From Reticulascus tulasneorum (Eukaryota; Ascomycota; Sordariomycetes; Glomerellales; Reticulascaceae): a stretch of 64,000 nucleotides of DNA. Positions 47,917 through 64,000 of the stretch are shown in pieces. A program made the position numbers and the translations under genes. The stretch spans positions 1,612,001 through 1,676,000 of the forward strand of contig LSAX01000001.1 in the NCBI GenBank assembly GCA_001557505.1, in the 5' to 3' direction. The notes below the pieces were generated by a model. That model ran no database searches. It saw only the letters and a list, made by a program, of their open reading frames with translations, and was not told the DNA's origin. Position 1 is the stretch's first letter, and each line of letters starts with the position of its first letter.

Positions 47917-50900
47917 CTACACTGCGAAATCCGCCTTCTCCAACCTCCTGGCTAGCTGCAAGTACCCCTCAACCATAGTATACGGCCCCCGATCCAGCCT
48001 CAACCTGCCGTCGTCCTGTCCCACCTCCAGAGCATTGTATTTTGTCTCCTCCTCGTCTTCTGCTCCATCTTCTTCGCTGTCGGCATCCGTGCCACCATCT
48101 GTCGCTTGGACGGACACACTGTATGGCTGCAGCCAATTCCACGTCCCCTTTGAGCTTGGAACCATTGGCAACCGGATGGGCGCCGTCTCTGGATCCGGCG
48201 GCACAGCTGACCTTTGGTTCTCGAGCCACGAGGACGCTGTCAGCTGTCGCGTCGGGTCGTACGAGACGGGTACGTCTTTAGTCACCAACAACGGTCCAGC
48301 TGTAAAAAATGCGGCTGGGAGGCTCGTTAGTCACTGAGTAGGTGGGCAGGGCTGTGGGACGTACATATCTTGTGGAGGCCTTGCTGGACGGTCCAGGGTG
48401 GCAACTGCAACGTCGTCGCGGGTAGAATGGGGCTGTACACGTGCAGCGGCGTGAACGGAGACACGAGCATAGTCTTGACCATCATCTTTGCAGCATGACT
48501 CTCCGCGAAGCTGTTGTTCCGCAATGGTATGGCCGGATCGACGTAGTACGGCCGCAGAGTTGGGAAATCCTTTGGCTCGATCAGGGTCCTCGGGTCGCCT
48601 GGAATGAGTGCTGGGGGCGGCGTCAGGGGTACGCCATCGACGATCCCGGCTGTGAAGTAAGTGTGTAAAGTCTCCCAGTCCGTCGTTCCCGTCACTGTGT
48701 TGTCGGCGTCGAAGTAGCCCACGACTCCGTCTGCCGGCCGATCCATATCTCCGATCTTAACGGGGAATTTATAGCCTAAGAGAATCTTTGCTTCGGAAGG
48801 AGGATCCATACCGACAGGCAAAAGTGTTGTCTGTGACACCAGAGGCTCAATGGCCAACTCGAGACTGAAGCCCACGTTAACCAAGGCAAGGGGGCTTCCG
48901 ACGATTGCCGTAGCGCTAGCGGCGTACTCTGGGGGCGGGTAGGACATGCTTTGGGTTGCCTTTATGACCATATCCCAGAAGGACCGGAGGTAGGGTGCGC
49001 CCGAGACGGGGTCGCGGATGCGGTCGATCAGTTGCTCGAGCTGGGATGAGGCGGCATCTGGGCCAGGCTTTGCTGGTTCAAAAGGAAGCCATTTGGCGTT
49101 TGTGGTGACGCCCAAGGGCCCCTGAGCGGTTAGTATGAAGCTCAACGGCGTCCAAATGGAAGGAGCTTAGGGCTGCATACTCCAAGGTTTACTTCGACAT
49201 AGAAAATGCCATCCGAGGTAAAGAACTGGAGACCGTAGTCGGCGTAATTGATGATTACCCTGGAGCCCATTTAGCGTCACTCACCTTTGATCATACTAAT
49301 CAAATAGTCTGCTCTAGAGGACCTACCATCCCTGAATGGGCTGATCCCAATGCGATGCAGTCCTCCACCCAGAAAACAACCCGTCGTCGTCCTGAACCTT
49401 CTCAACAAAAGCCGCATTCAGCCGGGCGTCCTGGTTGATGGCTGGTGTGAGCTGGATGTACGGGCAGAGAGGATACTCCCCCGGCAACTGCGGATCCGCT
49501 AGATGAAGTGGCGTTACCGTGTTGAGTTCGGTCGAACCGGCAACGAATCCAGGACAAACTTGGTCGCCAAGACAAGGAAACACCGTCTCTGGAAACGCGC
49601 TCGGGTCCCGAAGGGGCTGACTTGGAGGTATGGGACTGATGGCTTGGCCAAACTTGTCGACGATGGTCATTTTGGTGAACAGGAGCTGGCCGTGAGTGAC
49701 ACCCTTAAACGGGGCAGTCGGGGACCCGGAGAAGTCGACGAGAGGGCCATATGGTGTCGCGGCGCTCTGGTCTTGGATCATGAAGACGTCGGTTGCTGTA
49801 AGTCCGATATCGAGAACGGCGTCGGACGCTGCTTGGAGTGCGATACCTTGCTCTCTGCCCGAAAGGGTAAGGTTTGGAGAGACGTGAGAGCCTTCGGCCA
49901 GGGTGAGCAGGTTGCTCGTGATTCCCTGCAGCTCGCCGGACACGAACTTGAGCTGCCCGACTTTCTCTACGAAAGCCTGTCTCTTAGCCAAGGTGTCAAG
50001 ATCAACGGGGAGATCGACGCCCGCGATGTCGAGGACTTGCGAGACGATGGCCTGCAGGTTGAACACGGGCTGCGAAAGCATCATCATCCGCCCGCCTACC
50101 GTGCGTTGGTCTAAGATGCTGTCCGGCTGGTTGGCCAGCGCGCCTTTGACAACGTAGCGGACTTTGGGGTGGTTGCTCCCGACGGGCGAACTCAGGAGCT
50201 CGACGGACCATTTATCAAAAGGGATGTGGAAGTACGTAGCCTCCCACTCCAGAAAAAGCGGACACCAAGGCTGACCGGCCCAGGTCTTGAAGCCCAGCCG
50301 TGCGCCGCGGTCTCGTGTCGAGAGCGCTTGGGCTTCTCTCAAGAGGACCTGGATCGCGATATTGACGTCCTCGTCGCCCGTCTTGCCCACGGGGATAAGT
50401 GGCGGCATGTCGCGACCCGCGCCGAAGTACGCACTATCTCCCAGTGGTCGCGCCTCCAGGCGGCCTAGATACTCCGTCGCCCAACCCGAGTCCATTCCCG
50501 CAATGCATAGCGTCGGGTCTTTCCGCGTGAAGAAGGGCTCCCGGGCAATGCTACGGGCTTTGACTTTAGGAGGACTGAGGTCCGGGGGATTTACGATGGA
50601 TGCGATCTCGGCGTCAGTTTTCTCAACTAACGCGGCCGTGGAAAGAACGCGATCTTTGAACCTGGTCGCTTCTTCGCGATATTGTGCCTTGGGCCCCGGG
50701 AGGGAGCTGCTCGGGTCGGACACGAACCGCCACCAGACGGAAAACAACGACCACTGCATCAGCTTCAACTTTTTCTTCGCCGCATCTTGCAGGGCCTGCA
50801 GCTCGTTTGCTTTGCGTAGGTAGTCTACTTCGGAAAACCCGGTCGCATCGGGGACGACGGAGGGGCGAGCGACCGCTTGTCCCGGCGCTACTTTCTCGTC

Positions 50901-52250
50901 GTAGTGCCATTCCGTCCCTCCAGCACTTCGCATGTAATTGTGGAAATCAATGAGATCTGCTGCTTTTATTCGTCCATCATAGCCGTCTTCGACTGCGTAC
51001 AGGATCTCGGCGATATTGAGAATATTGGCAGCGGTGTTTGCAGTTTCGTTTCCCAGAACAGTTTCCGCATTGGCCTTATGCGCCTGCAGGAACGTCAAGA
51101 TTGAGTCCAAGGGCGTGCTAGCGACCGACAGTGGCTCCATCTTCTCATCTGCACTGAAGAGCTTTGCGTAATCCTCGGCCGGAGTGTCAGGCTTGAGATC
51201 GGCATCATACGAAACATCGTACATCGCGCCATGAGACACCAGTCTCGTGAAGGCGTGTGAATGGCCGTTTTTGCGCATCCAGTCATCGGAAACTTCGAGA
51301 AACAAAGCCTTGAATCTCTCCTTGAAGCTGCCACTGAGGCCCGAAAAAGAGAGCGGATCGTCTGCTGGGTCCGCATGCCACCCGATGACGGTGTAGTCGC
51401 ACTCTGCTTTCAGAAGATGACGATTCCGGCCCGCTGCATCGACATACTCAAACGTGTCCACGATGGAGAAGACGTTGGAATTGTGTTGCGTGTTGTCGGC
51501 GAAGAAGAGATTGGAAGAGCTCATGACCGTCAATGGAACCCTACGTGCCCTGTTGCCGGCCTCTTCCCACTCGTCCACAGGGACCTTGTTCCCGATGAAG
51601 TAGGTTGCTTGTCTGTCGAGAACCAACGGGTCCCTCTCGTCTCCAGACTGATAATACACGAACGGGCTGACGTCTGTCTCGAGATCCACCTCAGGGCCAA
51701 GCTCGTCGACCGTCCAGAGCCGGTCGCTTTCGACAACCCAGCCGTCGAGGTCCTTGATCTGCGCGTCTGCGGGCTCGCGATGTCTGAGAGATCGGACGAC
51801 GAGCCAGCGGTTAGGAACCGTTCGAAACAACGGGTTCTTGGAAATGTTTTCCTTGGTAGGAAGGTCTGTTGTCACGGCGGCGCCGCCCGTCGCAGCGCGG
51901 TACAGCCTCGGCAAGCTCCAATGTACAGACACGCCAATCCTGTTGTCCCGGGGTGGCGGCACGAACGAAGAATCGGATGCCGGCACACTGGGGTCGAGGA
52001 CGAAGGGCGACTGTTCCTCGACAGCACTTATCCGGCTGTTTACGGCCGCCGGCTGTGTGTTGCTCAAGTCCACTTTTGGAAGAACGTCGTGCTGGATCTC
52101 GGCGCTGTTGAGGCGGAGACCGCGGTAGTCGGGCTGCGTGACGGGAGCGATTCGAATTGCGCCCTCCTCAGAGACTTTAGTATTGAGTACAAAGGCATCA
52201 ATACTCATGGGCAGACAGAAAACACTGCTCGCACCCATGGATCCCGCCAT
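47917..52250 (-). CDS. Giant protein of unnamed family, cluster gene A (1380 aa)
   Basis: Four exons (49327-52250, 49181-49259, 48365-49121, 47917-48299) splice in phase to 1380 residues. Taken singly, the frames would look like two or three genes. The last intron has a clear GACTAAC branch site. The start is ATG 52250 (MAGSMGASSV); Met15 (MSIDAFVLN) is a possible alternative. No signal peptide, membrane helix or catalytic motif is evident. N-terminal landmarks are GVSVHWSLPRLYRA (106-119), VPNRWLVVRSL (145-155) and GWVVESDRL (170-178). I recall similar strings (HWALPDAL, VPNRWLV, WVVESD) in uncharacterised large bacterial proteins but cannot verify this. The second half is predicted to be mainly beta strands and loops; an acidic patch (DADSEEDGAEDEEE) lies near the C-terminus. 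It diverges from the tyrosinase over 437 bp. Function unknown; a partner or substrate scaffold of the tyrosinase is inference. Confidence 0.82.
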
Positions 52251-52687
52251 TTTGGCTGGCGTTGCGTTCTTGCTCTCGGATAGATTGCTAGCGATTGATG
52301 TCTTCCGAGATGTGAGCTAGGCGTACATCGACACCAGCATCAACTTCCAAAGGCATTGGAATTCCACAATGCACGAAGCTCCCAAGCTGCCAGTATTCGC
52401 CAAGATCCATGCCACCTCGCGATTGGATATATCGATCAACAGGGTCGGAGCACATCGTTGCCAATAGGAGTATAGTCCTGGATGCATGCATCTCAGCCGC
52501 AGTGGGCTTCGGGCATCTTGCTCATGCACCATGCACCCAGTCCATCGGTAAAACCTGCCCTACACGTTCCCGCCCAGGTCGTCCATAATACTTGCGGTAT
52601 TCGCGATGATGATATTGGTGCTACCGTTCGCTCATGCGTTGAGTCGCTCCCATCGTCGCGAGACGACAACCACGGCCAGCACACACA
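52251..52687. promoter_or_regulatory. Bidirectional promoter of cluster gene A and the tyrosinase
   Basis: The 437 bp between two divergent start codons has no credible coding content. A GATATATC element at about 52424 is AT-rich enough to serve as a core promoter. Shared control of the two genes is inferred from the arrangement only. Confidence 0.5.
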
Positions 52688-55658
52688 ATGACGCCGAATC
52701 CAGCGCGCGACGCTATCAATCAGAAATGGGTTGCCGGCATCCCGAATAGCGGGCCAGGCTACCCGCGCATGGAGATTGACGACTTCTGCCAGGATTATGC
52801 TCGGTTGAATCTGTATCTCCTCGCGATGGAGAAGCTCCAGTCCAACGACAAATGGCGGGAGGATATGTGGTCCTGGTTTCAGATCCAGGGCATCCATGGG
52901 TGCGTCCACGATGTGTCCTGCATTTTCTCTTTTATTTGGCCTTTGACCTACCGTCACATGAGCTTCAGGGAAAGTGCCTGCAAACTTGACAAGATGTCTG
53001 ACTTTGCACAGAGCGCCCTTCATCACTTGGGACGGCGTGGGTGGCGGAACACTATACAACTGGTTTCGGACGAATAAGAAGAAGTCGAGGCACAAGGGCT
53101 GGGGCAACGACAGACTTGTCAAAAGTGGTACTGCGGATCAGGGATACTGCACGCATTCTAGCGTATTGTTCCCGACCTGGCATCGGGCGTATGCCGCCAT
53201 GATTGAACAGGCGATTCAGGCCACGATGGTCGAGCTGGCTGACTTGTTTGTCGACGGCATGATGCCTGGAGAGGAAGGACCGCCGGGACCAGACAGCTTG
53301 AAGTGGCAGTCTGTACAGGCTGCGTTGATGTTTCGTCAGCCGTAAGTCCAAATTTGGGAAAAGATCACAGGAAGCTCATTTCCTGCTGGGATCCTTACAC
53401 AGCGAACCTTCCCATGTACTGGATAGAATGCTTACATTTTTAGATACTGGGACCCTTTTAGAGCACGAGCCGGGCGGACGGCCGACGGTAACGTTCAAAT
53501 GGGCTTATCCCTGATCTTTGCCGTCAAGCAAGTTAAAGTTACGAGACCGGATCTGAGGGAGGAGTTAATTAACAACCCGTTGTACTCGTACAAGTACCCC
53601 GAAATCTTAGCAAACGACAGCACACTGCACCCCCCGCCAGCGAGGGACCGATTCGGCATCATGAGGTGGGCAGGTCATAGACTTGGCCAGACGCAGACAA
53701 TGAGGCATCCGAGTGGACCAGGGCTATCAGACCACGTTAGCGTCCAAAAGACTCTCGAAGGTACCGGCGGTGCAGGCATTATGGCCTTGATGCAGATGGC
53801 ATACCACGTCCTGATGCTCGACAACTTACAAGGTGGTCAGACCGCCGTGCAGGGCGATCGCATCTACCACCGGTTCTCGACGACAGACTGGACGAGGGCC
53901 GAAGAGCGGGCGGCTGGACGCCCTGGGCCCGAAGATGAGCTGGAGACGCTTTCCCTAGAAGCCTGGCATAACCAGAGTGCGTAATCTCCTTCCACAGATC
54001 TACACCACTCCCTACAAAGTTATCTTGTTCGTTCTCGTCACGCGGAAGATATTTAACCAAACCGCGAAACAGTCCACGGTTCTGTCGGCTCCGCGGACGA
54101 ACCAATCATCGGAGGCACCATGGCCAGCCCCGTGACGGCCGGCCATGACCCGATCTTCATCTTTCACCATTCCAACATCGATAGGCATTTCGCCTTCTGG
54201 CAGACGCTGCACCCGGAACCGTGGCTCGGCGAGAATTCGATGGCGTCCACCAGCAACACCTTCACCGCTATGATAAACACCTGGGAGGGGAGCCGCACCC
54301 CACTGCTCCCGTTCCGCAAGCCCACGAAGAATGCTAAAGCGGCGCCCACGACGTTCTGGAGCTCGGACGACCTGAGGGACCATGCGGTGCTAGGGTATCA
54401 GTACGAAGAGATCCCAACGGGGCCGGGCTGGGACGCAGCGAGGAGGAAGGACGCGGCCACGAAGGCGATTAATAGGCGGTTGGCGTGGTGGAAGACGAAC
54501 CAGCCGGCCGTGGACCCGGTGAGAATGGATAGCGTGAGGGCGATCCCGCAACCCGTGCTGGTGGATGGGAGTACGGAGCTTGCGGACTTTTGGTCAGTCC
54601 GACGGTGGACTCCTAGGGTGAATCTGAGAGCAGAGCGAGAGACGGCTTCGCAAAGACAGCGTCTTCTTGTGGCCGATTCGGGATCTAGGCAGGATGAGGA
54701 TGCGGGTCCAGTAATTTTGCGAGCAGGTTCCGGCAAGGCTTCCGATGAAGAAGACGAAGAAGGTGAAGATGATGGGTCCGACGATAACAAAAGTGTCAAG
54801 ACTGCCAAAGCGGAGCAGTTCACAACCATACCAGGCACCAACACCACGACCATCTTCCCACCAGGGACAATGGACGCCAAGGGCCGCGTCCCGCTCTGGT
54901 TCTTCAACTTCCGCGTCCTGCGCCACGCCGTCGGGACCAGCTTCACCATCTACGTCTTCCTGGGTAACTTTCCGCCCAACAGTCGCGATTGGCGTCGCTC
55001 GCCTGGCTTGGTTTTGGCGCTGCCCCAGTTCATAGCGCCGAATCCTGATGCTTTCGAGAGCGACGATGACGGCGCAGACGACGGTGGTATGCGTGAAACA
55101 CGCCGCCCGCTTCGTTTGAGATCGCAGCGGTCCCTGAATCCTCGGTGCGAGAACTGTGCGAGGCAAGAGGAGCGCGGTGCGCAGATGGCGGGCGGGGCGC
55201 CGTTGACGCAGGCATTGATTCGATATCTGAGGATGGGACGGGAGGTGCCAATGCCGGATGAGATTACGGACGGCGAGTTGCCGGGCGTTAGACTCGAGGG
55301 TCTGGGACAGGATCAGGTTGTGCCGTTTTTGAAGAGGAATCTACATTGGCGAGTTCTGAGGGTAAGTTTATCATATCACTTCTTATCTCCGAGTGCCTTG
55401 GGGGCTTCTCGTCAGAGATTGCGAGTTTCGGTGGGAAGCATGAATCGGATGAGTGTGCTGCTGACTTTTTGATACACGCAGTCTGATGGGCAGGAGCTGG
55501 ACCGCGGGGACATTGCGGAATTCAAAGTCTTTGTCACGCATCGCTTCATGACGCTTCCAAAAAGGGACGAGGACACGCCCATCTACGAGCCGTGTGAGCT
55601 GAGGTGGGAGGTGACGGACCAGCGGCCTGGAGGGCTGGATCACGGAGATGTGCCTTGA
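52688..55658 (+). CDS. Tyrosinase (type-3 copper monophenol/diphenol oxidase), cluster gene B (846 aa)
   Basis: Five exons (52688-52899, 53012-53341, 53444-53976, 54073-55361, 55482-55658) splice in phase to 846 residues, start MTPNPARDAI. CuA ligands: His70 in FQIQGIHG, His119 in CTHSSVLFPTWHR and His128. Cys117 sits two residues before His119, as in tyrosinases with a Cys-His thioether. CuB ligands: His356 and His360 in WHNQIHG and His391 in DPIFIFHHSNID, a full match to the PROSITE tyrosinase 2 pattern. It oxidises phenols and catechols to quinones. A tyrosinase C-terminal domain follows (AVGTSFTIYVFLG and FLKRNLHWRVLR), normally a cap cleaved for activation. It is longer than common fungal tyrosinases because of a long CuA-CuB spacer and an acidic insertion (SDEEDEEGEDDGSDD). 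No signal peptide is seen. Neighbours suggest a specialised, possibly intracellular, substrate. Confidence 0.93.
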
Positions 55659-55852
55659 AGCCGCTGGACTTTTCGTCGTCCTATCATCTTGTTCGCTCGT
55701 ACGAGTCTCCTGTTGTTGGAATTAGGTTCACGAAGCAGTTGTTTAGTGTTAGATTGCCAAACATGAGAGACTACTCGGGCATCACATAATAGAATAACCA
55801 TCTATCCAGATAAAAACTCTAGTTCCATCTTAGCTAGAGAACCCCCAAATCC
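55659..55852. other. Short convergent spacer
   Basis: 194 bp separate the stop codons of the tyrosinase (plus) and cluster gene C (minus). Both 3' UTRs must fit here or overlap. Confidence 0.5.
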
Positions 55853-58800
55853 TCATAACGCTTCGCCGCGTAAGTCAACGTCACCACCATCCTTCTTCAA
55901 AACGACGACCTCGCTCTCTATAACACCCGAGTCACCCCCAGGAAGCCCATACGCCTCTGAGACCTTGATCTTACACACGCCCCTCGTCTCCAGCCCAGAC
56001 ACACCTATCACCTGTACGCTTGTCGGAGTTTGTATCAGCGCAACCTCGCAGTTCACCAGAACGAAGCTCAGGTCCTTCACGTATTCGGTCGCCAGCCCAG
56101 CGGACGGCCTTTGCGAGGTCGAGCCACGCGGAACTAACTTGATGTCGAGCTTGTCCGCGGAGGCGCTGACGAAGGTGATGAGTCGCTTGTTTGAGAGCAT
56201 GCGTGCGCCATGTCCATTGGTGTATGGGCTTTTGAGAAGAGGTTCTACTTGTGATGTGGGTGATGATGGCGGCGACGGACGGCCTGCTGCGGTGGGGATG
56301 GAGATCGTGATGCCTGAGAGTAGGTGTTGAGCGGATATTGACGATGGCAGACGCTTGATAGAGAAGATAAGATTAATGACGTGCTTCGTCGATGTAGGGA
56401 TGTAGTCTCGTGCCGAGTATACCGTATCGGGAGCATCTTGGTTAGCCGACGCTGCTGCGCTGCGATATGCCGGATAGACGACTACGCGATACTGAGAAGT
56501 CGTGCTGGACAAGTCTCGCCTCGCCAAGCGCTGTCTGTGTCGCACTTGCGGTGGAAAGGACGGGAGGACTGGAAGCCTGTGTAAATCCAAAGGCTCAGAC
56601 ACTTCTGGTGCCAACCTTTGCGCCTGCAGGCGGTGGATTGTCGGGATGGTTGCGTTCGGTCGCCTACTGGCAAACTTCTCAAAGTTGTCCCAATCAATGG
56701 TCGCATCATCTGTCTCCAAACCTGGAGATACGGCCACAAGCCGGAGGGGCTGCAGATCCGGCAACGGCAACGGTATATGGAACGAGCGTCCGGTCCATAT
56801 GGTGCGATCCGGCAATGGCATCGAGCGTGGAACAGTGCCATCTGGCGGCAGAATGCTCAGCTGGTAGTTTGAGTCGCTCAGCTCCAGGGACAGAATCGCC
56901 GAGTTCACGGGCATGTGGAACGCCTGTGGCGGGCTTGTCGTCGAGTCTTCGAACTGCAGTGCATCCACGAGATCCCTGGCCATCATCACGAAACTCAAGC
57001 ACCGTGTTGCTGGGTTATACCACAGTTGCCTCTGCGCCGCCGTGGGCGTTCGTGGTGCCGGAATCGGGGGCCACTCGCCCGTGTCCTCGCTGGGCCGAGG
57101 TGCACCCTGCGTGTAGAGCGTCTTGAGATTGCTGTTAATGAGATATCGCTGCTGGTGCGGCGGCTGGATAAATCGGATGTCGTAAAGGTCCTCGGGTTCG
57201 CAGTCTAGGAGCGCAAAAATTGTGTTGTCGCTCATTCTAGTCAGGCGAATCATCGGTTCGCGCTTGGTGTCCGGAAAGTATATCCCTGCCAGAAGGCCGC
57301 GCTTCCGACACCGAGCCACGATGCGGATGTCGGGCATGATGCGTATGAGCTCGGACCGGAGCAGGAAGCCGTACCGGGGTGTCGGCGGCTTGGGAGTTGT
57401 CCCCTCTGCGATGGGAGTATGGAGGTACGTGTTGTAGGCCTCCTTGATCTTCTTCCTGACCGTGTCATCGATTGGGTCTAGGTGGTTCGCGACGGACAAG
57501 GCACCGTCGATGAAGCAGTCGAGCCATGAGTCGTCGACGTGGAAGAACCGCAAAGATTCGGGAGGCAGGTGGCTTGGATCCGTGATCAGGTAGTGGGCGG
57601 GGATGTCGGACAGGAAGAGCTTGTCGCTGATCCAGTTATGGATGATTTCCCAGTCCGAGTTGGTGGCCGAGCCGAGATCATAGTCGTTGTACAGCTTCTC
57701 GCCCGACGCCGTCTGGGCCGCCATAGCAGTGTTGATTGCGCGCAAAAAGGACGGGCGAATGTCGGGGTGAGTCAGGAATGGGGCGACAGGTTCCGTGGTG
57801 GGCAGAAGATTCCTGGCTGGAGCCGTGCCGATAGAGGATGCTGCCGCCACGTCTACAAGATTGTCCGTCAAGCTTCTGAGTGCACCACGCATAGAGGCTA
57901 CGCCATTGACCAAGGTACGAGTCTTATCGCTCGCCCACTTGTGTACGAGCGATCGGAACCGGAAGAGCGCAGAGTTGAATACGCCGTCAGAGACAGCCAT
58001 CAACCTGCCCAGTTGCCAGGCCGAGCTGTACGTCATGTCCATGACACCCAGGTCTGGATCCAGGACCTGGTACTCTTTGCCAGTGTTGGATGATCCAGGC
58101 CAGTCTCTCACAACGTCTGGCATCCATGGCGCTTTGATCGGCGTCAGCGGCCCGCGCGAGAAGCAGAGTGTCTCCTCGCCGGTGGAAGCACGCCACCGAT
58201 GAAGCGAATAGCCGCGAGAGAGCCGGTCCTTTAGGAGCTTGGAATGTGCACCCGCGTCCGGCAAGGGTGGTTTGGGCGCGGGCGGGATGCTGTCCAGGGC
58301 CGCTGTCGACGGCCTGAGCGCACCCTTCGTAGCGGCAAGATTGTTCATCGTGTCCTTGAAGTTGATCGGGTTCGGCGGCACGGCCAGGTATGTCCAGCTA
58401 TGCAGAGAAACTATTCCAATCCTCGCCGCGGTGTTGGATCTCTGCGGAATGTGCGTCCCGGAAATGTCTGAATCGCTGGCAAAAAGCTGGCCAAGGTACT
58501 CGGTGCTAACGAGGTGAACCACATGCGTGGTGGGGGACCTGACGCTCGTATCCCCAGACATCTGGCTGATGCACACAGAGAAGAGTGCCGTTTCGTTGCC
58601 TGCAGCATCTGGGAACCCAGCGGTGCTCACCTCGCGGACGTGAGCAACATGCGGGAGCCCAAAGAAGATGGTTTGGTCGAAGATCTGTCTCATCTGCGAC
58701 GCCTTGGGGAAGATGATTTTGGTTTTGTCGATCGATGCTTGCATGTCAATCCATTCAGGGCTCTCGACCGCGTTCTCAAACTCAGCCTCGTACTCGACGC

Positions 58801-59401
58801 GGGATGTGATCTTGGTCAGGAAGTCGCCCGCCGACATGGAGAAGGCGCCGGAAGCAGTGACCTTCTCGAACGATTCGTCGGGGATGCCCAGCGCCCTGGC
58901 CTCGGCGGCATCGACTTGCAGCTCGGCGGGTGTGAGGACAACCAAAGCAATCCAGGGCGTGAGTCTCATGGGACCGGGCCTCTCCCACGGCACGTGCGGG
59001 TCATTGAAGACGATATGCGGGAGGACGGCGGATTCCTCCGATCCGCCCTCGGGTGGGTAGACGGAATGAATGACCTTAGGGTCCAGTTCAAACCGCGGTG
59101 CCATGACATCGAACTCCTGCAGGACGATGGGCGTAGTGTCCGGGTTGGGTGGGAAGGTCGGTGCAGCGACACTGTCGTAGTTGAAGACGTCCAGACTGCC
59201 CGTCGACACCCAGATCGTCTGCCTGACTTCGATGCCATATCGGCCGGGAGCCAGGGATGGCTCAAATCGGGGGTACAGTTTCATTTCTCCTGCCTTCGGA
59301 CGGCCATCGTCGATCGCTTGTGGGTTGAGCATGCCGTCGAAGAGCGCGCGAGGCAGACGCCGCGGCCCTCCACGGGGTCGTCGCAATCGGCCAAGGTCCA
59401 T
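55853..59401 (-). CDS. Giant protein of unnamed family, cluster gene C (1182 aa)
   Basis: A single uninterrupted 3.5-kb frame from ATG 59401 (MDLGRLRRPR) ends at 55853. The first 23 residues are Arg-rich; Met24 or Met40 could also be starts. Landmarks are RFELDPKVIHSVYPP (103-117), LPHIVFNDPHVPWERP (127-142) and PWIALVVLT (149-157). I recall comparable strings (LPHIVL...LPWER) in large uncharacterised bacterial proteins, but I cannot verify this. There is no signal peptide, transmembrane helix or known catalytic motif. The C-terminal 250 residues look beta-rich (for example YRVVVYPAYRS, HVINLIFSIKRLP). The gene converges with the tyrosinase and diverges from the DUF6603 gene. Lack of introns contrasts with the multi-exon neighbours. 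The function is unknown. Confidence 0.8.
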   Translation of the reverse strand: MDLGRLRRPRGGPRRLPRALFDGMLNPQAIDDGRPKAGEMKLYPRFEPSLAPGRYGIEVRQTIWVSTGSLDVFNYDSVAAPTFPPNPDTTPIVLQEFDVMAPRFELDPKVIHSVYPPEGGSEESAVLPHIVFNDPHVPWERPGPMRLTPWIALVVLTPAELQVDAAEARALGIPDESFEKVTASGAFSMSAGDFLTKITSRVEYEAEFENAVESPEWIDMQASIDKTKIIFPKASQMRQIFDQTIFFGLPHVAHVREVSTAGFPDAAGNETALFSVCISQMSGDTSVRSPTTHVVHLVSTEYLGQLFASDSDISGTHIPQRSNTAARIGIVSLHSWTYLAVPPNPINFKDTMNNLAATKGALRPSTAALDSIPPAPKPPLPDAGAHSKLLKDRLSRGYSLHRWRASTGEETLCFSRGPLTPIKAPWMPDVVRDWPGSSNTGKEYQVLDPDLGVMDMTYSSAWQLGRLMAVSDGVFNSALFRFRSLVHKWASDKTRTLVNGVASMRGALRSLTDNLVDVAAASSIGTAPARNLLPTTEPVAPFLTHPDIRPSFLRAINTAMAAQTASGEKLYNDYDLGSATNSDWEIIHNWISDKLFLSDIPAHYLITDPSHLPPESLRFFHVDDSWLDCFIDGALSVANHLDPIDDTVRKKIKEAYNTYLHTPIAEGTTPKPPTPRYGFLLRSELIRIMPDIRIVARCRKRGLLAGIYFPDTKREPMIRLTRMSDNTIFALLDCEPEDLYDIRFIQPPHQQRYLINSNLKTLYTQGAPRPSEDTGEWPPIPAPRTPTAAQRQLWYNPATRCLSFVMMARDLVDALQFEDSTTSPPQAFHMPVNSAILSLELSDSNYQLSILPPDGTVPRSMPLPDRTIWTGRSFHIPLPLPDLQPLRLVAVSPGLETDDATIDWDNFEKFASRRPNATIPTIHRLQAQRLAPEVSEPLDLHRLPVLPSFPPQVRHRQRLARRDLSSTTSQYRVVVYPAYRSAAASANQDAPDTVYSARDYIPTSTKHVINLIFSIKRLPSSISAQHLLSGITISIPTAAGRPSPPSSPTSQVEPLLKSPYTNGHGARMLSNKRLITFVSASADKLDIKLVPRGSTSQRPSAGLATEYVKDLSFVLVNCEVALIQTPTSVQVIGVSGLETRGVCKIKVSEAYGLPGGDSGVIESEVVVLKKDGGDVDLRGEAL

Positions 59402-59948
59402 TCCGGTGCCCGGTGATCAACTGTTTTCCGAGCAAAGCTGAATCTCTGGAGAATGGAAAACGTCTATTTCTTCAATTCTACAGTCATAATTGAGGGCAAC
59501 CATGACGGTGCTGGGCCGCTGGTCCTCTGGTCGGCTAGACTTGCCATTTTCCTGGCATTGGGCCGGGGGAGGATCTCCAAAATGCCACGATGGCGCTGTG
59601 GCGTGGGGAGCTGAACTCGGGCTGCTTATTATCGACCCAATGATATGCCCTTCATCTGTTCCCTTATCCAATATTATTGCCTATTTGAGCGTAATCCCGA
59701 TCTGTCGGGACAACCACTGACTGAGCTTCCCATCCTCTCGCCCACCTGCCCAGGACGACCAGGTTCGGCCGGTACTTGTAGACACTTCACATCGCCCACA
59801 CCAGTGAAAACGATGGGCAGCAGAGCCGCAGCAAGGAGCTTCCTCGTCCATCTCTCGTGATTGTACCTGACAGTTGGTAACCGTCTCAACATTGGGTAAT
59901 CTCACCAACATACCTCTAGAGGGTCATCAACCCCGCGCGTGACGAGGC
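59402..59948. promoter_or_regulatory. Bidirectional promoter of cluster genes C and D
   Basis: 547 bp between divergent start codons, without a credible gene; small frames here show no domain. Shared regulation of the two flanking genes is inferred from the geometry. Confidence 0.5.
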
Positions 59949-62900
59949 ATGTCGCTCGACAGTTTCCTTGTCAACGGCGTCCCCAACACGGGGAGCAGGA
60001 ACTGGGCCACGGCTCTCGGAACCCTGGGCCTCGCCCCCGTGCCCGAGCCTTCGTCCGTCGGTCTTGCCGCCACTGGACCGCGTTTCTGGGACGCCTCATT
60101 CTCATCATCCCAAAACCGCCGCAGGTTCGGCACCGATGGCGTCTCTATCTCGCCGCAAGACACGCCAAACAGGTCCGCTGTCCTCGGCATGCTATCCCCC
60201 ACGCCAGGGACAGCACTGGCCGGCCCCTTGAAGTTCTCCGACGTCCGCGCCGAGTTTGGCGTCATACCCGCGGATGCACCGCGCGAGCTGGTCGGCCTTT
60301 TGAGTGCCATTGACAGCTCTGGTCTTCTCATGGTGACGCTGGACGATTCCGATACGGCGCGGAACGCACTATGGGCGTTCCCTGATGGCGTGTACAACAT
60401 TACCGTCTGCATGACCTTCAAGTTCGGGAATCTGGAGGCGCTTCAGCTGCTATCGCAGTTTGTCAAGAGCGAGTTCGGGATCAACATCAGCATCGGCTTG
60501 TCGGACTGCCGGCTCGAGTTCACGCAGACAACAGGCTTTGATCCGGACCCAGATGAGCCCGGCGGCTTTTACGTCTCGTCGTCGTATCGCCTCGCCGTCA
60601 GTGTGCGAGTTGCTTCGTTTGAGATATCAGTCGTGTTCACTCCGTTCGACGTCGACATCTACTTCTCAGATCCACCGGGCGTTCCCGTGACAGCCAGTAT
60701 CTTCGAGCGTCTGAGTGATGCTGTGTTTCGTGCCTCGGATCCCTCCGTATCGAAGGGCGTCGATTCCGAAAGCCTGCCCGCGTCTTCGCCCTCCGGTCCA
60801 TTTGCTTCGCTTCTTAGTGACGTTGATCTATGGTATATTACTCTTAGTCGCGACGTCATAGGTGAGATTGTAGAAGGAACAGATGAGCGGGAAGATGGGG
60901 GGGAGGAGGATCAAGTTGATCTCCGGCCTCGCACGCCCATCTACGGGCCAGTTTACTGGAGCATCACCTTGCTGGGGGCGTGGCGTATTGGCTCCGAGAA
61001 CCAAACGGTTCTGTTGGCGTTGACATACAACTCTCAAACAAGCCGGTTCGCTGGCAGGGTGCTTTTCGAGGCCGACATACCCCAGCGCACATTCAACCGC
61101 CACCCTGACTTTCTTTGGGTGACAGACCAGCTCCCTCCGCGAGTCCTTTCCAAGCTTGCTACCAAGCCAGTCCCTCGCAGCCTCAGCCTCTGGAAGCTGT
61201 TCGCGGACAGTGGACAACCTCCCAGAATGGATGTGATCCCCACCGAACTGACGGAGGCATTCGTCTCCTTTCGCAAGACGAGTGCAAGCGAGTCCACGCT
61301 CGAGTTCGCAACCGCGATCAGCTCACACAACGCGGTCCAGCCGGGTACGAGGCCAACACCCAGTCCATTCAGCTGGGACAAAATCGGCGTCGCAATCGTC
61401 AAACAGCAGAGTCCATCCACGACCACGACCAGCATCCACGTATCGACAGTGATCACCCTAGCCTCGTCCCCAAGCTTTGATCCAGCCATGGTGGCCATCG
61501 CAATTGACTATGCCACGGGTCGTCCCTGGCTCCTTCACGGACGGGCTGAGAACTTGTCCGCCGGCCTTCTGGCCGGTTTCTTCCACGCCGAGATCAGCGC
61601 GTCCGCAACTAGTCTTCTCGGCTCGCTCAGCCTCCGCTATTTGGATATACTCTACACCTTCAGTGGATCTGGGGAAGCGTCGTCGTTTCTCATTAGCGGT
61701 GCTCTGGTCCTCGGCGACCTAGAGCTCGACCTGGCGTACCAGTATGCGTCGGGGCTTGTAGCGGACAATGAGCGCACGGCAGCTCAGATTGCGTGGGAGA
61801 AGCGTCCGGCTGGCGAGAATGATCCCGTTCGGCCGGTTGGAAGTCCCGGTAGTCGTGTTGCGCAGTGGACCTTCCAGGCGACGCTCGGGGCAAAGTCCAC
61901 GGGTTCGACGCTCGGTTCTGTGATTGGATCTTTTGCCCCGGGCGTTGCCTCCAAGCTCCCCGGTTTTGTGAGCAACATTGAAGTCCCAGCGGCATCAGGT
62001 GATAAAGCTCCCGTATTGTTGAGATTGGCGTCGATGGGAGCAATCTCCGGGGGCGGCGACGGTACGCTGATGCTGACGTTGCGCATCTCGTTTGCCGGCT
62101 TGTCAGTGATGTTCGTGTCCATCCCGGGACCAGCAGGTGCAGTGAGACGAGTATTGCGTGTATCAGCTGATCAAATCCCTCTGGTCAGTGGCATTCCTCT
62201 GATCGAAGTGCTCCCACCGCCTTTTGATCAGTTGCTGTATCTGTGGGTGGACGATGGTGACGGCGGCGACGGCTTCACCAAGGACGAGCTAGACCAGATC
62301 AACGCCGAACTCAGCCGTTCGCGGACTGACAAGATCCAACCAAAAGAGACCAACAAAGCGAGCGCCGGCACCACCGCGCCCATTCTCCTCGCAGGCCATC
62401 ACTTCATGGTTGTCCAGGACGGGAAAGTCATTCTCGACCACCACTTCTCGCAGGCCAATCCTGATGATCCAAATACAGAGCCAGGTCCACCTGGAGGCGC
62501 GGGCGCGAACGCAGCTGAGCCCACGAAAGGCGCAATGGACAAGGAGTTGCCGCTGTTGACTATACACGGCATCAGCCTCCAGTTCAACACTCCCACGCTA
62601 AGTATCGGCATCGACGCGACGGTGAAGCTGGGACCCATCGCTTTCACAACCATCGGCTTCAGCATCAACTTTGACTTGACACACATCAAGCTCAATGATC
62701 TTGGGTCCTTAATCACCGGCGGCTTCGTGAGCTTTGCTCTGCACGGCCTCGCTGTGAATCTTGATCAGCCGCCGCTCAAGCTCGCAGGCGTCTTCATACA
62801 CGACAAAGGCGAAGGTGAAGAGAGATTTCGCGGGGGTATATCGTTCGGATACGGAGCGTGGCAGTTTATGGCCCTCGGCGAGTACAGGATCCTCACGAGG

Positions 62901-64000
62901 CCGACGGGGAACTTCAAGTCGGTGTTTGTGTACGCCAAGCTGGACGGACCGCTCATCACGCTGGCCTTTGCGACTGTATCCGGCGTGCGGTTGGGATTTG
63001 GATATAATAGCGTCGTTCGATCGCCCACGCTGCAGCAGCTTCCTGTCTTTCCGTTCCTGAACGACTCGGGCGCTAGGAATGCCGGTAATGATCCGATGAA
63101 GATACTCAAGGTTATGATGGGGGATGGGGAACAGCAGGCTTGGGTATCGCCCAAGGAGGACGCTTATTGGGTGGTGGCGGTGGGTGATCTAACATCCATA
63201 CCCATTGCGCGTGGGGTAACGATCAGTTGATCGACTGACACTCAATAGGGGCTTACTCTCACCGCGTTCGGCATTCTCTCCGTCACCGCTGTGGCCATGG
63301 TCGGCTTCCGCGACGGTGGCACGATCGTCTCGGTATTCGCAGATGGCGTAGCCCAGATGCCCCCTGGAGCCGTGGACCAAGCATGCCTTGTCTATGTCGA
63401 GATCGGGATGATGGCCGAGCTGAACACGGTCGACGGGTACTTCACCGTGCAGGCCGCGCTGGCTCCGTCGTCGCATATTCTCGTGCCGTCGTGCCGGTTG
63501 ACCGGCGGTTTTGCGATGACCAACTGGTTCGGGCCTAGCACGTATGCGGGGGATTTCGTGTTCACGGTAGGAGGAGTGAGTATAAGTCATTTTCCACGTC
63601 CCACGCGACTTCGGGTGTTGGGTTGATATGTGCTAACTGTAGACTAGTACCATCGTGCATTCAAGCCCCCGCCGTGGTATCCCGTCGTGCCGCGTCTGGG
63701 CGTCTCGTTCACCCTTGCTGACATGGTGAACGTCACCGGCGTCGCCTACTTTGCCATCACTCCCAAATGCGTTATGGGCGGCGGCGCGCTCCATCTCGGC
63801 CTGGAGGTCGGGCCTGTATCGGCTTGGCTGGACGTCCTCTTCGACGTCTTCATCCAGTTCAAGCCGTTCCACTACATGGCCGATCTAGCCGTGTCAGTCG
63901 GCTGCGCCATCACGATCAAGGTTTGGTTCATTCATGTCCGGGTCAGCGCCAGCGTCGGCGCAGCCCTTCACATAGAAGGACCTCACAAATTCCACGGAGT
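59949..64000 (+). CDS. DUF6603-like giant protein, cluster gene D (partial, >1300 aa)
   Basis: Exons 59949-63179, 63249-63575 and 63648 onward are in phase; the frame is open at the window end with 1303 residues so far, start MSLDSFLVNG. I recognise the region from about residue 860 as DUF6603: the repeating hydrophobic/small pattern (GGFVSFALHGLAVNL, FRGGISFGYG), then LTGGFAMTNWF, YPVVPRLGVSF, VMGGGALHLG and FKPFHYMADLAVSVG. The family occurs in bacteria and fungi and has no established function. The alternating pattern suggests long amphipathic beta sheets. There is no signal peptide. The first intron (63180-63248, donor GTGGGT, branch CTGAC) joins AYWVVA to GLTLTAFG, fitting the family. 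A donor 36 nt downstream would leave a 33-nt intron, too short. Partner genes on the left suggest a common role. Confidence 0.82.

Follow-up and report, generated by a model that had tools for sequence, protein, structure and literature searches.

Why should a fungus keep a tyrosinase gene wedged among three genes for giant proteins? The question is raised by a four-gene locus of Reticulascus tulasneorum (source genome of 42.8 Mb in 35 contigs), which lies at the end of the window, i.e., the whole stretch of 64,000 nucleotides that was analysed (C1:1612001-1676000; GenBank contig LSAX01000001.1). The genes are termed here A, T (the tyrosinase), B and D (a DUF6603 protein). Relatives of all three giants are found in bacteria, where they are encoded in the order D-B-A and, in most loci, followed by a fourth gene, C. 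The reading that we prefer, and to which we give an even chance, is that a conserved set of giant proteins, encoded in bacteria as the operon D-B-A-C, is represented in the fungus by A, B and D and is accompanied by a lineage-specific enzyme, which here is T. Three to four giants that have remained neighbours in many bacterial phyla and in fungi very probably act jointly; the libraries searched give no function for any of them, and two of the three found here have no family entry there.

The homology of each giant with bacterial proteins was established separately. The first frame of D matches PF20248 (DUF6603; E 7.5e-41, 140.7 bits against a cut-off of 27) and is thus a member above the curated score, in line with an earlier note on this DNA that had placed the domain in one of the giants. 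The same note had recognised no named family in the other two, and none was found: Pfam (E <= 1) gave no match for the two longest frames of A, nor did PHROGs for A, and whole B has no match in Pfam (E <= 1), NCBIfam, PHROGs or PADLOC. A search with the long A frame as a single sequence returned 121 relatives at E <= 0.001, 120 of which were listed. The first 106 of these share 28-63% identity with A, and every named one is fungal. The last 14 (P0107-P0120; E 1e-15 to 3e-4) are bacterial where named, namely Paenibacillus caui, Streptomyces, Corallococcus, a Blastocatellia bacterium, Pseudomonas caspiana and Nocardia. The corresponding search with B returned 95 relatives at E <= 0.001, among which the named bacterial ones start at E 3.7e-29 (Streptomyces olivochromogenes). 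The D protein of the window, also used as a single sequence, gave 16 matches among 4256 frames of the 80 bacterial loci described next (best E 1.4e-20).

To describe the bacterial loci, 14 bacterial-side A sequences were aligned and the alignment was used for a pattern scan of one genome per species. The pattern matched 251 stretches, 246 of which encode a relative of A, and the best 80 of these 246 were taken as loci. They represent eight phylum-level groups and lean heavily to Streptomyces: Actinomycetota (65, including 40 Streptomyces), Bacillota (6), SAR324, Bacteroidota and Pseudomonadota (2 each), and Chlorobiota, Acidobacteriota and Planctomycetota (1 each). Genes were assigned with profiles built from the window and bacterial rows. 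Both A and B were identified in all 80 loci, and D, B and A follow one another in this order on one strand in 75; the other five hold B-A and start at a contig end within or near B. The genes are closely packed, with 54 of the 75 D-B gaps and 55 of the 75 B-A gaps falling between -50 and 62 bp. Five D-B gaps reach at least 100 bp, and the larger negative gaps arise mostly from uncertain start codons.

As these loci were chosen by A, a reverse test was conducted in which species genomes were searched for DUF6603. The search covered 296 genomes from the phylum of a Streptomyces, with 9 that matched; 296 from that of a Chitinophaga, with 13 (12 of them over the cut-off); and 299 from that of a Paenibacillus, where the 1 match was the centre of the search itself. 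With the below-cut-off match and genomes already sampled omitted, 23 loci were taken (8 and 14 from the Streptomyces and Chitinophaga phylum searches, respectively, and 1 other), which the score of D against the operon profile splits into subtype 1 (12 loci, 420-1216 bits) and subtype 2 (11 loci, 26-81 bits). In subtype 1, B adjoins D in 12 of 12 loci and A then follows in 10 of 12, two of the 12 (L130 and L133) being apparently the same contigs as L015 and L083 of the first set. In the fungus, the homologues of D, B and A are likewise neighbours, interrupted solely by T, which lies between A and B. This linkage of the three giants is real and of ancient date, not a chance neighbourhood, and the earlier proposal that the three giants belong together is supported by the linkage of their bacterial relatives.

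Linkage of A and B is also indicated in other fungi, since the two genes occur on scaffolds of equal length in Patellaria atrata, Clohesyomyces aquaticus and Parascedosporium putredinis, and likewise in the pair P0001/P0121. A further A/B pair with an equal scaffold length of 5482 was not counted, as such a scaffold is too short for both genes. Phylogenies were inferred with FastTree from a larger set (44 fungal-side rows for B and 38 for A) and with a quick IQ-TREE search, with SH-aLRT support only, from a smaller one (18 fungal-side rows each); both sets hold a part of the rows. In both, a fully supported branch separates fungal from bacterial rows, for A as well as for B, so that each protein has one fungal clade; rows without a name were taken as fungal when ranked among named fungi, so this label is partly an assumption. 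In the A trees of both sets, a gammaproteobacterial metagenome-assembled genome (MAG; L060) branches off between the fungal clade and the rest of the bacterial rows. The R. tulasneorum genome holds a second A-B-D locus on contig C15, with the D relative about 10 kb from the divergent B/A pair. Its A and B fall into different fungal subclades from the window genes in both FastTree trees, which indicates that the two loci are old. The A and B trees would fit one ancient acquisition as a block, and this much of the block transfer from bacteria suggested in the earlier note stands. The arrival of the tyrosinase with that block was dropped, given that no tyrosinase match at E <= 1 was found among 5526 frames of the 103 bacterial loci.

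The fourth bacterial gene, C, lies behind A and encodes a conserved N-terminal domain of about 290 residues, which is present in 75 of the 80 loci in up to four copies; in the five loci without it, the contig ends within 1.3 kb of A. Among 103 matches to this domain, 91 contain most of it together with a tail of at least 80 residues. The N-terminal parts of these 91 proteins form one similarity group, and their tails fall into 22 groups, the three largest of which hold 65 of the 91. Seven C proteins were scanned against the family libraries. One of them (L008) carries a tail like a phage tail collar, under the Pfam cut-off but with a PHROGs E of 3.5e-19, and one has a beta-propeller match.

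Fungal B exceeds most bacterial B proteins by about 400 residues, and the conserved C domain may be fused to its end as part of this extension. The domain gave no direct HMMER match to A, T, B or D. Profile comparison of 65 aligned fungal B extensions with the C domain gave an hhalign probability of 69 and an E of 4.4e-5 over 110 columns. The 31 controls compared with the extension comprised 20 column shuffles, the C profile in reverse and 10 segments drawn from A, B and D; all gave E >= 0.13, and these segments gave E >= 0.037 against C. Furthermore, a single frame of 1613 aa in L060 (5104-9942) comprises B, a C domain at residues 843-1129 and further sequence, and is the only B frame with a C domain among the 80 loci. 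That fungal B carries the C domain, as in this one bacterium, is supported, less strongly than the homology, the bacterial linkage and the single fungal clades. The likely fusion leads to a direct prediction that the B and C proteins touch.

The gene models were obtained by splicing at GT-AG introns, after which all four genes are intact (Table 1). The alternating strands and the intergenic gaps of 437 bp (A-T), 194 bp (T-B) and 547 bp (B-D) described earlier were borne out, as were the lengths of A, T and B. D, previously followed for more than 1303 residues, was completed from the adjoining contig sequence and ends 1206 bases outside the window, which corresponds to position 65206 in the window numbering. 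One of its putative introns is just 33 bp long, with uncertain borders. The G+C content across the cluster (window 48001-64000) is 54.6-59.3%, compared with mostly 51-55% in the rest of the window, which may simply reflect dense coding.

Table 1. Genes of the four-gene locus (window positions) and the second locus in the same genome.
Feature	Position	Strand or arrangement	Description
Gene A	47917..52250	-	1380 aa; 4 exons 49327-52250, 49181-49259, 48365-49121, 47917-48299; spliced model
Gene T, tyrosinase	52688..55658	+	846 aa; 5 exons 52688-52899, 53012-53341, 53444-53976, 54073-55361, 55482-55658
Gene B	55853..59401	-	1182 aa; one exon; N-terminal part matches bacterial B
B C-terminal extension	55853..57064	-	About residues 780-1182; resembles N-terminal domain of bacterial gene C
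Gene D, DUF6603 protein	59949..64000, continues past window	+	1697 aa; 4 exons 59949-63215, 63249-63575, 63648-63998, 64058-65206
Second locus, contig C15	L004:4324-7896, L005:2-4015; D relative in L006, L098	B and A divergent neighbours	D about 10 kb from the pair; no tyrosinase found

T is complete by motif, as first read. Its last long frame matches PF00264 and PF18132, both over the cut-offs, and His 70, 119, 128, 356, 360, 390 and 391 are common to T and seven other aligned tyrosinases (8 sequences); from the known family layout, we take these to be the histidines of the two copper sites. T therefore shares both domains and the conserved histidines with fungal tyrosinases that carry Tyrosinase_C, but differs from them in its greater length, in an acidic stretch before the C-terminal domain and in its position between two giant genes. 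The closest relative is P0216 of Patellaria atrata (45% identity over the full length, E 9e-218), and the next reaches E 9e-46 with about 30% identity over half the length. The search for relatives would miss intron-rich genes in unannotated metagenome data, so that absence elsewhere is weak evidence. It is possible that T modifies the giants or is housed by them.

In bacteria, an enzyme is also found beside the module in a subset of loci. The count is based on the 98 loci with D (75 from the first set and 23 from the reverse test; L130 repeats L015 and was counted once), of which 26 have an enzyme-family gene directly before D on the same strand, nearly always a hydrolase. The enzymes are of several kinds. 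(i) Metallo-beta-lactamase-fold proteins precede D in 13 loci, recognised by Pfam over the cut-off in L008, L014, L132 and L134, and by similarity to Pfam-matched proteins in L028, L038, L043, L046 (the weakest), L047, L053, L066, L068 and L119. (ii) Endonuclease/phosphatase-like proteins precede it in seven, assigned by Pfam in L009, by strong similarity in L010-L012, by weak similarity in L013, through L013 in L018, and by eye, without a Pfam match, in L022. (iii) Subtilases are found in L054, L136 and L138. (iv) Single loci account for the rest: L127 with a class 3 lipase, L015 with a DUF4135 protein and L123 with a PhoD match that stays below the cut-off. A stricter gene caller did not call the gene in two of the 26, L054 and L068. 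That an enzyme gene always precedes D was rejected and the claim cut to this subset. As a separate observation, related proteins without a Pfam match lie directly before D in an actinomycete and in Chitinophaga (L017:1871-3283 and L027:1979-3382).

Several observations weigh against reading A, B and D as one set with an exchangeable enzyme. Of the 98 loci, only 46 have a gene candidate called close upstream of D, and several of these candidates are questionable frames or lie as much as 450 bp from D; few Streptomyces loci have a convincing one. In the reverse test, just 5 of the 12 loci of subtype 1 yielded the C domain. The fungal genes form no operon, as their strands alternate, A(-) T(+) B(-) D(+), and the one-strand order D, B, A of bacteria is not found. 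The assembly of Kuettlingeria erythrocarpa is fragmented and places A and B on separate contigs. B has no convincing match among solved structures. Signal-like stretches are rare in A (4 of 80), B (0 of 80) and D (1 of 75), with start codons picked mechanically, and this rarity weakens a secreted role. Finally, T has no counterpart in the 103 bacterial loci, and no tyrosinase profile match was found in about 45 kb around the C15 locus, where the nearest listed tyrosinase place on the contig is about 0.47 Mb away.

The last of these points favour the strongest rival, in which only A, B and D belong to the conserved module, and T, unrelated to it, has come to lie between A and B and produces quinones or pigment independently. 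Domain search located ten other tyrosinase places in the genome, and a close relative of T was found in just one other fungus. T does not look like part of the same block as A, B and D. On the other side, T occupies the A-B interval, and its relative in Patellaria, far closer than the next, is encoded on a scaffold of the same length as that of Patellaria A and B. This equality suggests that the A-B-T linkage has been kept. We regard T as a bystander with a probability that is appreciable, while short of even.

The structure models offer a view of what the module might be. D is modelled as a long antiparallel meander, and its strands are oily on one face and polar on the other, with a mean face difference of 3.15 compared with 1.57 in shuffled strands. 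Its best structural matches are ApoB100 and porins, on which it superposes poorly (query TM-score of 0.14 and Foldseek E of 2.2e-5 for ApoB100; rmsd mostly 12-18 A, with one row at 5.8 A). The poor superposition indicates no more than a type of sheet shared with the ApoB100 beta belt and outer-membrane barrels. A Gram-negative outer membrane is absent from Streptomyces and Paenibacillus. For B, the model is confident, and the Protein Data Bank (PDB) offers no close match to it.

From sequence and models, we infer that the products of D, B, A and C may assemble into one large complex that T would serve in the fungus. In such a complex, D would supply a long two-faced beta sheet that could wrap lipid or close up as a barrel, the body would consist of A and B, and C would carry a tail that can be exchanged. 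The neighbouring enzyme gene would be added lineage by lineage, nearly always as a hydrolase in the bacterial loci that have one and as a tyrosinase in the fungus, where it could give the assembly an oxidising activity on phenols, for example in cross-linking or pigment formation. We propose tentatively, at less than even probability, that this is a new class of giant assembly present in at least eight bacterial phylum-level groups and in fungi. In it, D would be a two-faced beta belt for lipid or a pore, A and B would be the body, and C would be an anchored tail that can be exchanged and that in fungi is fused to B; the enzyme would differ between lineages and here be a tyrosinase. Should the proteins make up a single particle, cells would have a novel type of assembly in which both the tail and the enzyme can be exchanged, and the fungal locus would mean that eukaryotes have kept it. 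The module is new to the family and structure libraries searched, and a literature search on DUF6603, in which the literature itself was not read through, returned nothing. As for DUF6603, D lies above its curated cut-off and the bacterial D relatives belong to the same module, but the Pfam entry names one domain of unknown function, and A, B and the conserved part of C have no entry over the cut-off in the libraries scanned.

A more specific role, as a released particle that acts on other cells, is improbable in our judgement. Here, the C tails would bind the target, D would act as pore or belt, and the enzyme would be the payload, so that the fungus would deliver an oxidase. The genes before D encode enzymes of varied folds, as such a payload might, and the scarcity of signal-like stretches in A, B and D resembles that of particles set free by lysis. 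The L008 tail, which matches phage collar or fibre families, also points this way, but the other scanned C proteins have no such match and A, B and D match no phage family in PHROGs. Moreover, one Streptomyces B matched none of 50,697 phage records, and no injection component appears among the 25 families listed, out of 45 Pfam families matched, for 84 flanking genes. None of six proteins matched PADLOC at E <= 0.1, where a missing match does not exclude a defence system. The weakest alternative is an ordinary fungal secondary-metabolite cluster, in which tyrosinases do occur; it is very improbable, as bacteria keep the three neighbours together with no tyrosinase beside them, and among the 84 bacterial flanking genes scanned together each Pfam family matched 3 at most.

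The reverse test also revealed a second form of the bacterial module. One of the 11 subtype-2 loci is cut by a contig end; in the other ten (L122-L125, L128, L136-L138, L140 and L141), two frames come after D on its strand, the first of about 930-1390 aa and the second of about 1590-2230 aa. The first of these frames, aligned from seven of the ten loci, is related to B (profile comparison probability of 95.8, E 7e-9, with negative cross controls). The second was expected to be a homologue of A, for which profile comparison found nothing. A similar gene of about 600 aa stands after the A-position protein in five loci, and gave no match to A, B, D, C or the B extension. The B protein of subtype 2 is longer than that of subtype 1, and subtilases precede D in two loci.

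Two further observations concern the placement of the module in bacterial genomes. On the chromosome of Streptomyces olivoreticuli (loci L102, L105, L108 and L117), DUF6603 matches with identical scores lie at mirrored distances from both chromosome ends, a placement that would fit terminal repeats. Relatives of one Streptomyces B are found on eight plasmid records of Streptomyces, Embleya and Paenibacillus.

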